Shown: positions 45,617 through 63,667 of the stretch, piece by piece
How the letters are laid out: every line of letters begins with the position of its first letter
Position numbering within the stretch: position 1 is the stretch's first letter
From: Sipunculus nudus
Taxonomy: Eukaryota > Annelida > Sipuncula > Golfingiida > Sipunculidae
Direction: 5' to 3'
Length of the DNA stretch: 64,000 nt
Assembly (NCBI GenBank): GCA_026874595.1
Contig: CM049319.1
Location: 15,403,601 to 15,467,600 of the forward strand
Made by a program: the position numbers and the translations under genes
Notes under the pieces: model-generated
What the model was told of the DNA's origin: nothing
The model's input: only the letters and a program-made list of their open reading frames with translations
Databases searched by the model: none

Positions 45617-46725
45617 CTAGAATACGGGTAGTCGACAAGTGACTATGTGTATCCGCCGAAATCAGAGTGGGACGGGTGAAGTGAGGCATGGATTGAGTAA
45701 CAAGGGGAAATAGAGTGAGGTGTGTTGCATATTAGCATGGATGTCTTCAGCCGTAGGTTGGGCCACCTACCACAAAATCCAGAAAGCTATCAAAGTTGTA
45801 ATGCAAAAAGTCAAACCACTGCCGAGATATGGGTAATTTTATCCCACGGCAGACAAACAGACGGACCCTGTGCAAAAATGGTTGCAGGTTGCGCAACCAG
45901 TTTTGAGTATGATAAGGAGCTATGTGAGATCTATACACATGCAAACTTTTGGCCCAATCGGTCAAACGGTTCCTGAGATATAAGCCTGGATGTCTACAGT
46001 GTAAACAAATGTAGGTGGCGCCACCTGCAAAAAAAATCCAGAAAGTAATTCAAGATGAATAAATCTGCAAAATTTTAGGCAGATAAGTCAAACCAGTGCA
46101 GAGATATTCATGAGTGATTTTATCCCACAGCAGACAAACAGACAGACGCTGTGCAGAAATGGTTGCAGGTGGTGCCACCAGTTTTGCATATGATAAAGAG
46201 CTATGTGAGATCTATAAACATGCAAAATTTTGGCCAAATCGGTCAAACGGTTTCTGAGATATGAGCTTGGATGTCTGCAGCATAAATGTGAATGTAGGTG
46301 GCGCCACCTGTCATAAAATCAAGAAAGCTGTCCAGGATGTATACACACGCAAAATTTCAGGTGGATAAGTCCAACCAATGCAGAGATACGAGTGATTTTA
46401 TCCCAAGGCAGATGAACAGATGGACACTGTGCAAAAATGGTTGCAGGTGGCGCCACCATTTTTTATGTTTGTTATAAAGCTATCCAGAGCTACATTTGTG
46501 CAAATTTTTTTTCCGGATCAGTCAAACGGTTCCTGAGATATGTGGGTTAATGTGTCATAACAGACGCACGGATGGACGCAGAGCGCAGAGGAAAGGTCAG
46601 AGGTCAAAACAAAATCGGGGCGCAGCAGTTCACATGTGACCCGAACATAATCCCGGGTTTCGTAAAATTCGCGGCGGCGTGCAGCTGAAAACATAGTATC
46701 CGCAAAACTCTGTTTTGGCGGATAC
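45617..46725 (-). mobile_element. Family C Helentron-like non-autonomous element, copy C1
   Basis: On the plus strand it starts at CTAG (45617-45620), next to the hairpin GTAGTCGACAAGTGACTA, then GTGTATCCGCC. It ends at the palindrome GTATCCGCAAAAC...GTTTTGGCGGATAC (46696-46725). AA lies outside each end (45615-45616; 46726-46727). The body has modules of about 145 bp, each with GGTGGCGCCACC or a variant (about 46016, 46168, 46297, 46446), '.caaattttggcc.aatcggtcaaacggttcctgagatat' and 'cagacaaacagacggac..tgtgcaaaaatggttgcagg'. An AGGTCAGAGGTCA motif lies at 46594-46606. It is the reverse-orientation sibling of 61240-62693. No coding capacity. Confidence 0.8.
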
Positions 46726-60450: not shown

Positions 60451-60743
60451 GTCATCCAGGGCCTATGTGATCAAACGTCTCGCAAGAGTGTTTGTGAGCA
60501 AAAACCTTTCGCAAACCTATCGCAGAGTGATTTTGGATGTGATCAAAACTTTCGCAAACTGACTAAAAGGCACAGGCTCTCGTAATTTGCGAATTTCAAA
60601 AACCTCTCGCAGCGGTCTGCGTAGCCACTTATGGCCCTGTACATGCACGGCAGAGTACCGAGACACGGTCAATGCTTCATGTTTTAATACCAACACAAGC
60701 ATTCAATGTTTAACATTCGTATACTCTTTGCATATAATCCAAG

Positions 60744-60744
<1 letters not shown>
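60451..60744. other. CpG-rich patch with repeated TTTCGCAAAC words
   Basis: CTCGCAAG, TTTCGCAAAC (twice), ATCGCAGAG, TTTGCGAATTTC and CTCTCGCAGCGG occur within about 150 bp, with GATCAAAA words between them. The CpG content is unusual for this window. Both strands have short open frames, but neither is convincing. Confidence 0.5.

Positions 60745-60785
<41 letters not shown>
60745..60785. repeat. (GT)n/(TA)n microsatellite
   Basis: A short GT run passes into a TA dinucleotide run immediately before the tandem duplication that starts at 60784. Confidence 0.9.
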
Positions 60786-60787
<2 letters not shown>

Positions 60788-61170
60788 CTTAATATGCATA
60801 TATATGTATGTATGTATATTTATATATCAATAATGTTAAATATAATTATTCTATATTGTTATGAAATAAATATTCCTTCTCTTACAAAATCGGCATACTT
60901 TGTGCATATACAATTTTAAATATCTAAATAGAGAATCTTAAAATACATAGTAAGGAATACATATTTTAAGAAAAATATTTAATTCTTAGTGCTTAGAAAT
61001 ATATTTGTGTAATTGTAAGTGAAAATTAATTAATCTGAAGTCTCAGAACTAAGTTTCCAATTCAATGACATCAATTGATGTATAGAATGTATATAATATT
61101 TATATCATACATAAATTAAATATCATATATATATTATTATATTATATATAAACAGTATTCCATGAACTGA
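60784..61170. repeat. Tandem duplication, copy 1 (uninterrupted, 387 bp)
   Basis: Starts ATTCCTTAATATGCATATAT and ends CAGTATTCCATGAACTGA. It is nearly identical to copy 2 (61171-63020) once the inserted element is removed. It contains the empty insertion site AATTATTCTATATTG (about 60845-60860). Confidence 0.9.
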
Positions 61171-63020
61171 ATTCCTTAATATGCATATATATATGTATGT
61201 ATGTATATTTATATATCAATAATGTTAAATATAATTATTGTATCCGCCAAAACAGAGTTTTGTGGATACTATGTTTTCAGCTGCACACCGCCGCCGCGTA
61301 GGTTTCCGGAGAACTCCTCCGTAACCGCTGGGCAGAATTTTACGAAACCCAGGATTATGTTCGGGTCACATGTGAACTGCTGCGCCCCAATTTTGTTTTG
61401 ACCTCTGACCTTTCCTCTGCTCTCTGCGACCGTTTGTGCGTCTGTTTCCACACATAAACCCACATATCTCGGGAACCGTTTGACTGATCCGGAAAAAAAA
61501 TTTGCACAAATGTAGCTCTGGATAGCTTTATAACAAACATAAAAAATGGTGGCGCCACCTGCAACCATTTTTGCACAGTGTCCATCTGTTCATCTGCCTT
61601 GGGATAAAATCACTCGTATCTCTGCATTGGTTGGACTTATCCACCTGAAATTTTGCGTGTGTATACATCCTGGACAGCTTTTCTGATTTTGTGACAGGTG
61701 GCGCCACCTACATTCACGTTTACGCTGCAGACATCCATGCTCATATCTCGGGAACCATTTGACCGATCAGGAAAATTTTTTTGCACAAATGTAGCCCTTG
61801 AAGAGCTTTATAACATACACAAAAAATGGTGGCGCCACCTGCAACCATGTTTGCACAGTGTCCATCTGTTTGTCTGCCTTGGGTTAAAATCACTCATATC
61901 TCTGCAGTGACTTGACTAATTCACCTGAAATTCGGCATGCGTATACATCCTGGATAGTTTTTCTGATTTTATGACAGGTGGCGCCACCTACATTCATGTT
62001 TACGCTGCAGACATCCAAGCTCATATCTCTGGAACCGTTTGACCAATCAGGAAAATTTTTTTGCACAAATGTAGCCCTTGGAGAGCTTTATAACATACGC
62101 AAAACTGGTGGCGCCACCTGCAGCCATTTTTGCACAGCTCCTGTCTGTTTGTCTGCCATGGGATAAAATCACTCATATCTCGGCAGTGGTTTGACATATC
62201 TGGCTAAAATTTTGCAGGTTTATACATCCCCGACAGCTCTCTTGATTTTATGACAGGTGGAGCCACCTGCATTCTAGTTTATGCAGCAGACATCCAAGCT
62301 CATATCTTGGGAACCGTTTGACCGATTGGGCAAAAGTTTTGCATGTGTATAGTTCTCACATAGCTCTTTATCATACGCAAAACTGGTGCCGTCACCTGCA
62401 ACCATTTTTGCTCAGCGTCCATCTGATTGTCTGCCACGGGCTAAAATCACTCATATACATGTAGTGGTTTGACTTATCTGCCTTAAATTTTGCATATGTA
62501 TACAACTGGGACGGCTTTCTGGATTTTGTGGTAGGGGGGGCAGCCTTCATACACAATTTGGCTGCAGACATCCATGCTTATATGCAACACTTCACTCTAT
62601 TTCCCCTTGCCACTTAATCCATGCCTCACTTCACCCGTTCCACTCTGATTTAGGCGGATACACGTAGTCGCTTGTCGACTACCCGTATTCTAGTTCTATA
62701 TTGTTATGAAATAAATATTCCTTCTCTTACAAAATCGGCATACTTTGTGCATATACAATTTTAAATATCTAAATAGAGAATCTTAAAATACATAGTAAGT
62801 AAGGAATACATATTTTAAGAAAAATATTTAATTCTTAGTGCTTAGAAATATATTTGTGTAATTGTAAATGAAAATTAATTAATCTGAAGTCTCAGAACTG
62901 AGTTTCCAATTCAATGACATCAATTGATGTATAGAACGTATAAAATAATATATATCATACATAAATTAAATATCATATATATATTATTATATTATATATA
63001 AACAGTATTCCATGAACTGA
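61171..63020. repeat. Tandem duplication, copy 2 (interrupted by a family C element)
   Basis: 61171-61239 and 62696-63020 together reproduce copy 1 with only a few substitutions and small indels (an extra GTAA near 62799, and AT-repeat length changes). The element at 61240-62693 splits it. The low divergence shows that the duplication is recent. Confidence 0.9.
61240..62693 (+). mobile_element. Family C Helentron-like non-autonomous element, copy C2
   Basis: Starts GTATCCGCCAAAAC in a palindrome (61240-61269). It ends GGCGGATACAC, the hairpin GTAGTCGCTTGTCGACTAC (7-bp perfect stem), then CCGTATTCTAG (CTAG at 62690-62693). A 3' hairpin followed by CTRR is a hallmark of Helitron/Helentron elements. 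The inverted GTATCCGCC/GGCGGATAC pair corresponds to their subterminal inverted repeats. Six to seven modules of about 145 bp carry GGTGGCGCCACC (about 61548, 61698, 61830, 61979, 62107) and CATATCTCGGGAACCGTTTG. The flanking duplicate gives the empty site: insertion is at TT. No coding capacity. Confidence 0.85.
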
Positions 63021-63667
63021 ATTAGCTGATTAAAAGATTATCTCTTGTGCTTGCATCGGTGCTATCAGTTCTGTTTGTGTTTCTCTGCATGATTGGTTCA
63101 CACTTGTGTCAAATCAGAAAATTACTTAGCTTGCTAAATTATCAAATTTATATTACATGAATCTATACCACTTCAGATAAATGCGAATTATGAACGTTAA
63201 TTCTTACATTTTATTTTTTATGAATAAGATTTTTGCAATATCTAAAACAATCATATAATATAAATACCTTGGAAATATTTTGAACATATATTTCTCTATT
63301 TTCACTGCAATTATATATAAAATTTTACCGAAATCTCAACAACCAGTCCAGAACATATGTATATGTGATAATGTATAATATTATAACAATAACAAGTGCA
63401 CGATCAAACAAAATACTGAAGCATGTGCGCATATAAATTGTGTCAATTTAGAATAATGCATTATACAAGTATCATACAGAGTAAATACCACATATATAGC
63501 GTATTTCTCTCAATGAGTCATGATGATTATAACAGTTATTAAAGTGTAAATATACAAGTTTAACTATATTTTGAAAAAAATTGTGATGTGTACAAATAAC
63601 ATCAGCGATTAGTTCTAAAGTCTCAACTTAGCGACAGGTATGATTTCTGGATTTTCTATCCCGTGTG
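63021..63667. other. AT-rich non-coding sequence
   Basis: No gene or recognised repeat. Confidence 0.4.

Follow-up and report, generated by a model that had tools for sequence, protein, structure and literature searches.

The window analysed here, a stretch of 64,000 bp from the genome of Sipunculus nudus, carries near its right end two adjacent copies of a 387-bp block, the second of which is interrupted by 1454 bp of other DNA. The arrangement raises a question: what is the inserted segment, and what did it recognize in the host sequence? To answer it, we took the block itself as the starting point. A first-pass annotation had described it as a tandem pair consisting of an empty site and a filled site, and the sequence reads as described; the alignment of one copy to the other agrees. 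The relevant features are as follows.

60784–61170, forward strand: copy 1 of the tandem 387-bp block, the empty pre-insertion site (sequence, BLAST and eight of nine paralogs)
60846–60850, forward strand: the unused target TTATT in copy 1 (read in the sequence)
61171–61239, forward strand: copy 2 of the block, the portion left of the insertion (alignment to copy 1)
61235–61239, forward strand: the target TTATT, an instance of TNATT, immediately left of the insertion and host sequence (copy 1 and eight of nine paralogs)
62696–63020, forward strand: copy 2 of the block, the portion right of the insertion (97.0% identical to copy 1)

At the critical place, copy 1 reads AATTATTCTATATTG; copy 2 reads AATTATT, then GTATCC...CTAG (61240–62693, 1454 bp), and then TTCTATATTG. 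The net gain at the filled site is 1456 bp, i.e. the 1454-bp element and an extra TT. Thus, both ends of the element can be read from the pair, as had been claimed, up to the shared TT. By BLAST, the two copies are 97.0% identical over 330 columns to the right of the insertion and 95.9% identical over 73 columns to its left. When polarised against six outgroup copies, the substitutions between them (four in about 387 bp) are all private to copy 1, with none in copy 2; indels account for a further 13 columns.

The description of the block as a 387-bp tandem duplicate holds for this locus and needs one correction: the block is a piece of a larger dispersed repeat, not unique DNA. A genome search with copy 1 returned 52 matches among the 40 scored of 245 candidates, and several of these were full-length or almost so, at 83–94% identity. 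We retrieved nine other copies of this host repeat with 300-bp flanks. Similarity extended through both flanks in eight of them and through the left flank only in the ninth (L077). The block was single in all nine, such that the tandem is confined to the window among the ten loci; three of the nine had an additional stretch of some 100 bp within the block. Without the element, the host DNA around the insertion (60484–63320) accordingly amounts to about 1 kb or more of dispersed repeat. In eight of the nine paralogs the TTATT is uninterrupted, while one letter of it is changed in L077. Because eight paralogs have an intact empty site, copy 1 represents a genuine pre-insertion sequence rather than the scar of a loss. 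Copies 1 and 2 also have in common five derived substitutions that are absent from the six outgroup copies, and hence both units descend from this locus.

Having fixed the ends of the inserted segment, we examined its anatomy.

61240–62693, forward strand: the inserted element, GTATCC...CTAG, 1454 bp, very probably a non-autonomous element of the Helitron2/Helentron type (HINE) (sequence and family copies)
61240–61269, forward strand: predicted 5' hairpin, the outer nine letters of which are the 5' inverted repeat (ATIR/subTIR) GTATCCGCC (DNA fold)
61463–62583, forward strand: internal tandem repeat with a period of 280 bp, 4.0 copies (repeat analysis)
62653–62661, forward strand: 3' inverted repeat GGCGGATAC (intact in 35 of 38 family copies)
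62664–62682, forward strand: predicted 3' hairpin GTAGTCG-CTTGT-CGACTAC, just inside the 3' end (fold)
62690–62695, forward strand: the right end, CTAG followed by TT, in which TAGTT echoes the TNRTT pattern of the target (38 of 38 copies)

A nine-letter inverted repeat thus marks both ends (GTATCCGCC and GGCGGATAC), its 3' member occupying element positions 1414–1422 and ending two letters before the 3' hairpin and 32 bp before the end of CTAG. The 5' hairpin folds as DNA at -7.6 kcal/mol with a z-score of -5.3 (61238–61275); the 3' hairpin has a z-score of -3.4 when a short stretch is folded (62658–62695) and of -1.9 in a longer one (62645–62695). The sequence that follows the 3' hairpin is CCGTATTCTAG. 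From the end of this hairpin to the end of CTAG is a distance of 11 nt, and CTAG fits the 3' CTRR of canonical Helitron1 elements. The element contains no substantial open reading frame, the longest listed being 99 aa.

HINEs have been described as having subterminal inverted repeats, a 3' palindrome, central repeats and TT flanks (PMC4067079, PMC7492417), and two hairpins with asymmetric inverted repeats have been given as the anatomy of Helitron2 (PMC3627910). The element in the window has asymmetric subterminal inverted repeats, with the 3' one upstream of the 3' hairpin, a 5' hairpin built on the 5' repeat, a 3' hairpin near the end, central tandem repeats and no coding capacity. We therefore identify 61240–62693, with a probability of roughly 90%, as a non-autonomous rolling-circle transposon of the Helitron2/Helentron group (a HINE) that was copied into one of the two tandem units formed by a piece of a dispersed host repeat. 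The element type is already known, and the family is a further case of the HINE kind.

The first-pass annotation had also ordered the events, placing the insertion after the duplication or while the duplication segregated, and concluding that the element had moved recently. This is plausible at best, since the substitution intervals overlap and an exchange between alleles fits too. The element, outside a patch described below, has nine unique substitutions in 1263 sites (0.71%, 95% interval 0.33–1.35), and the two host block copies together have four in 781 sites (0.51%, 95% interval 0.14–1.31); the overlap of these intervals leaves the order of duplication and insertion undecided. Divergence of the window copy from the family majority amounts to 2.82% of sites, more than for any other of the 39 copies aligned. 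However, 24 of the 41 differences fall in one patch of 191 bp, and for this reason we dropped an earlier inference, drawn from the 41 substitutions, that the element is older than the duplication. Outside the patch, 17 of 1263 sites (1.35%) deviate from the majority, a value close to the family median of 1.44%, which was measured over the full length. By this comparison, the element in the window does not look specially young.

The patch itself (61485–61675, element positions 246–436) derives from another subfamily and lies within 200 bp that match, with 100% identity, the window's other copy of the family:

45617–46725, reverse strand: second element of the family, 1109 bp, flanked by TTATT to the left and TT to the right (BLAST and sequence)

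Internal repeats appear to have been exchanged between copies of the family.

Duplication first, an exchange between alleles and an insertion soon after the duplication would all fit the substitutions. A specific alternative for the tandem is that it arose when an allele carrying the element recombined unequally with one lacking it, or that the assembly joined two alleles at this place. We consider this a real contender, albeit one that we would bet against. The breakpoints of the duplication share a 3-letter microhomology, ATT, and the copies are little diverged (four substitutions in 387 bp plus the indels), which orders neither event. The five derived substitutions common to copies 1 and 2 were weighed against it, but they are equally compatible with exchange.

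Is the target seen here particular to this locus? A rough first-look count gave 10,181 candidates for the family in the genome, and the 40 that were scored comprised the window copy and 39 others at 94–96% identity. Retrieval of these 39 copies with their flanks, a check of the kind that the first-pass annotation had recommended, bore out the ends: 38 of the 39 have recognisable ends (L047 being the sole exception), with CTAG in 38, an exact GTATCC in 35, and TT on both sides in 38 of 38. In all of these 38 the element's own right end is TAGTT, and TNATT stands at the left (TAATT in 31, TTATT in 5, TCATT in 2); these copies were picked by their likeness to the window copy, and the query included the right-hand TT. 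We thus drew a less selected sample, defined by an exact 5' hairpin with G or C at positions -7 and -6, in which the letters of the target were not criteria. Among the 100 matches listed of 466, TNATT stood at the left in 82; T was found at -5 in 96, at -2 in 99 and at -1 in 99, and position -3 was A in 86, G in 9 and T in 5. The 18 that deviate from TNATT do so mostly at -3. On the right side, among 100 matches listed of 138, T occupied +1 in 100 and +2 in 96 (counted by eye). For comparison, TNATT occurs at 1.1% of positions in the window. The earlier proposal of a TT target is confirmed as far as the TT goes and can be sharpened: from these alignments, the target of this family appears to be TNATT, a sharper rule than is usually described for animals, and it looks strict. 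A literature search of partial coverage turned up no case of a TNATT or TNAT target in animal Helitrons.

To learn what the host had before insertion, we joined the left and right flanks of 19 of these 38 copies and searched the genome with them. Each of the 40 scored places contained an element-free match across the junction (59 matches in total, of which 18 were short); five loci account for all 40 (L010, L013, L018, L019 and L023). At these, we read 12 empty copies, relative to which the filled site gains, besides the element, exactly a single TT. TNATT was host sequence in 11 of the 12; the remaining one, L098, reads AACT. Two further loci, found through the exceptional copies considered below, had TNATT in 10 of 10 empty copies (nine of nine at L104, one of one at L106). 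The host origin of TNATT is thus documented at eight independent loci with readable empty sites, this locus included.

The TT was present in the host at these eight loci, where a duplication of TT and a shared core give the same sequence. Copies lacking one of the right-hand Ts could in principle distinguish the two. Genome-wide, among copies with an exact 3' hairpin, 49 have a letter other than T at +2 and 34 have one at +1. Of these 83 listed exceptions we retrieved 20, of which 13 had a 5' match and 7 did not; one match (L107) was judged spurious, leaving 12 in use. Where the left end was credible, TT stood on the left in seven of seven exceptions at +2 (TNATT in six of the seven) and in four of five at +1 (TNATT in two of the five). 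The joined flanks of the 12 were searched in turn, and the 40 scored places belong to two of them, L104 and L106. In both, the host had TNATT and the right-hand change is a later mutation, and so these exceptions exclude little against duplication.

In the anatomy, TNRTT is common to the target and to both junctions, which can account for the doubling of the TT with no duplication required; we infer on this basis that one TT is the host's and the other the element's. Of the two possibilities originally raised for the TT, a duplication or an insertion between two Ts, the duplication is therefore needless, as the element's own end is TAGTT. An exchange anywhere within RTT would yield the same product, rendering nicks at A/TT, AT/T and ATT/ equivalent in sequence (a slash marks the position of a nick, insertion or junction).

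This equivalence bears on a second alternative, in which a canonical Helitron (Helitron1) entered the host between an A and a T, i.e. TTGTATCC...CTAG in TNA/TT. At the loci read, this parse is formally equivalent to the others; the 3' hairpin 11 nt from a 3' CTAG fits it, as does the A at -3 in 38 of 38 copies and in 86 of the 100 listed from the less selected sample, and the proto-Helentron of Phytophthora has been described with a 5' TT, a 3' CTAG and insertion between A and T (PMC4067079). However, the 5' TC is absent, and a 5' hairpin with asymmetric inverted repeats marks Helitron2 and not Helitron1 in the account given in PMC3627910. We therefore regard this assignment as unlikely; the question touches the label of the family and the position of the nick more than the mechanism. 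It is highly improbable that the element is instead a DNA transposon with terminal inverted repeats (a MITE) that duplicates a 2-bp TT target: such a transposon would account for TT on both sides of all 38 copies with ends and for filled sites that exceed empty ones by exactly one TT, but the inverted repeats do not lie at both termini (the 3' one stops 32 bp short of the CTAG end), the TT is fixed and belongs to a longer TNATT on the left only, and the seven exceptions at +2 all keep their left TT where matching sides would be expected, with the caveat that this test excludes little.

Returning to the rolling-circle reading, the mechanism might be as follows. A Rep/helicase encoded elsewhere in the genome would nick single-stranded DNA at TNRTT motifs, namely at the host's TNATT, which stays to the left of the insertion, and at the TAGTT of the element's right end. 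One strand would be copied, its left end being joined to the TNATT of the target and its right end to downstream host DNA. The data that bear on this scheme are the ends, the terminal structures, the target motif, the eight true empty sites, the large size of the family and the Helentron-type reading frames described below; the nicking chemistry, the enzyme that supplies it and the rolling-circle route are what we infer from them.

A more general proposal, which we offer tentatively and hold somewhat less probable than its negation, is that one HUH-nuclease core, TNRTT, serves all three sites of strand exchange (the target TNATT, the left junction TNATT/GTATCC and the right junction TAGTT/host). 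The doubled TT of Helentrons and DINEs would then consist of a host copy and an element copy, and a single TNATT rule would extend from animal HINEs to fungal Helitron2 elements and, by analogy only, to a circovirus Rep. The nick context reported for the latter, TATNATT/N with a base pair between -4 and +1 (PMC9973303), has the same spacing as the TNATT target. In our copies, Watson-Crick pairing of -4 with the base after TT was not seen (11 of 38 vs. 15.4 expected); as the pairing is not reflected here, the likeness to circoviruses remains an analogy.

These results may be compared with those on known systems. As in the HINE/DINE-1 elements of Metaseiulus, Drosophila and Crassostrea gigas (Cg_HINE), the present family has subterminal inverted repeats, a 5' repeat or palindrome, a 3' palindrome, central tandem repeats and TT-flanked insertions without an evident duplication, and its copies outnumber Rep-encoding elements (PMC4067079, PMC7492417). 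In contrast, the sites described for those elements are T-rich or TT, some with a varying number of Ts, whereas here we find TNATT and a near-constant TT; the 3' CTAG also departs from their description. FoHeli1 and FoHeli2, Helitron2 elements of Fusarium oxysporum, likewise have two hairpins, asymmetric inverted repeats and TNATT in the target (PMC5148889). The same source places their insertion between 'TNAT' and 'T' in the legend of its Fig. 2, or 'A' in its text. Unlike the present element, they are fungal and autonomous, are about 6 and 5 kb long, start with TCAG and end with ATTTT. The proto-Helentron-Pi of Phytophthora infestans shares the 5' TT, the 3' CTAG and the A/T insertion, but it is about 14 kb long, codes for protein and is described with a typical Helitron structure (PMC4067079). 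Helraiser, a bat Helitron1, has a CTAG 3' end joined to T and a hairpin near that end; it differs in its 5' TC and its AT dinucleotide target (PMC4778049). Some Chlamydomonas Helitron2 elements have been reported with target duplications of 7–19 bp, so not all members of the Helitron2 group insert without a duplication.

In the account of the DINE-1/Helentron study, no target-site modification was evident, and how host and element share the flanking Ts was left unclear (PMC4067079). For one very large family, the eight empty-site loci settle what the host contributes: the target is TNATT, matched by TAGTT in the element. A vague preference for T-rich DNA thereby becomes a nickase motif that is testable with short oligonucleotides, and with the TNATT rule, the insertion points of this family can be placed to the exact base.

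A source for the enzyme was sought in the same genome, where Helitron_like_N has 143 matches. One reading frame of 2229 aa encodes OTU, Rep, PIF1 and endonuclease domains and another, of 2420 aa, encodes Rep, PIF1 and endonuclease domains; from this domain content both are classed as Helentron-type. In a third, of 1658 aa, the domains are limited to Rep and PIF1. BLAST and a fuzzy search for ends located no family ends in seven 10-kb Rep loci, and among the 7 elements read of 23 pattern matches that depart from the window copy directly after the 5' hairpin, none was autonomous with family ends. The candidates L056–L062 all proved to be the same non-autonomous family. Another candidate, L063 (C13:32882138), the one match to a further pattern of family-like ends beside foreign sequence, is a 753-bp relative whose ends are closely similar and whose interior is largely different. 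The oyster HINE study likewise reported its elements without an identified autonomous partner (PMC7492417). Two of the Helentron-type loci, L051 (C13) and L055 (C8), are 97.7% identical over 11 kb. Both have a motif of about 69 bp (estimated from BLAST offsets) repeated near the coding start and repeat-rich tails, and their termini were not reached when the pair was extended to about 17 kb.

If the rolling-circle route is true, a circle joint of the form CTAGTTGTATCC is expected, and it must be distinguished from adjacent insertions. Five pairs of head-to-tail neighbours of the family were found in the genome, with no direct sign of circles among them. L067 is the only exact joint (CTAG-TT-GTATCC): an element with an AGA loop lies to the left of one with a GAA loop, with TAATT outside. 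We rejected it as a rolling-circle dimer, as the joint unites two subfamilies. It is better read as a second insertion that re-used the TAATT target; TNATT stays intact at the left of an insertion, and the target can therefore be hit again. Three other pairs, L064, L066 and L068 (C3:4747186, C9:22281802 and C10:42913531), have the same nine-letter spacing, TTYATNATT, and differ in their outer flanks; they also share the left-hand variant ACAAGTAG before the 3' stem. Between the C9 and C10 pairs, the left members are 99.0% alike and the right members 96.9%, and the spacers differ at two of nine letters. Possibly these pairs are a composite that moved as one, or else a product of chance. Finally, at C1:107118223 and C1:107119826, two 3' ends of the family, separated by 1603 bp, are each followed by TTCCC on the right; a local duplication of an element together with its flank may be the cause.
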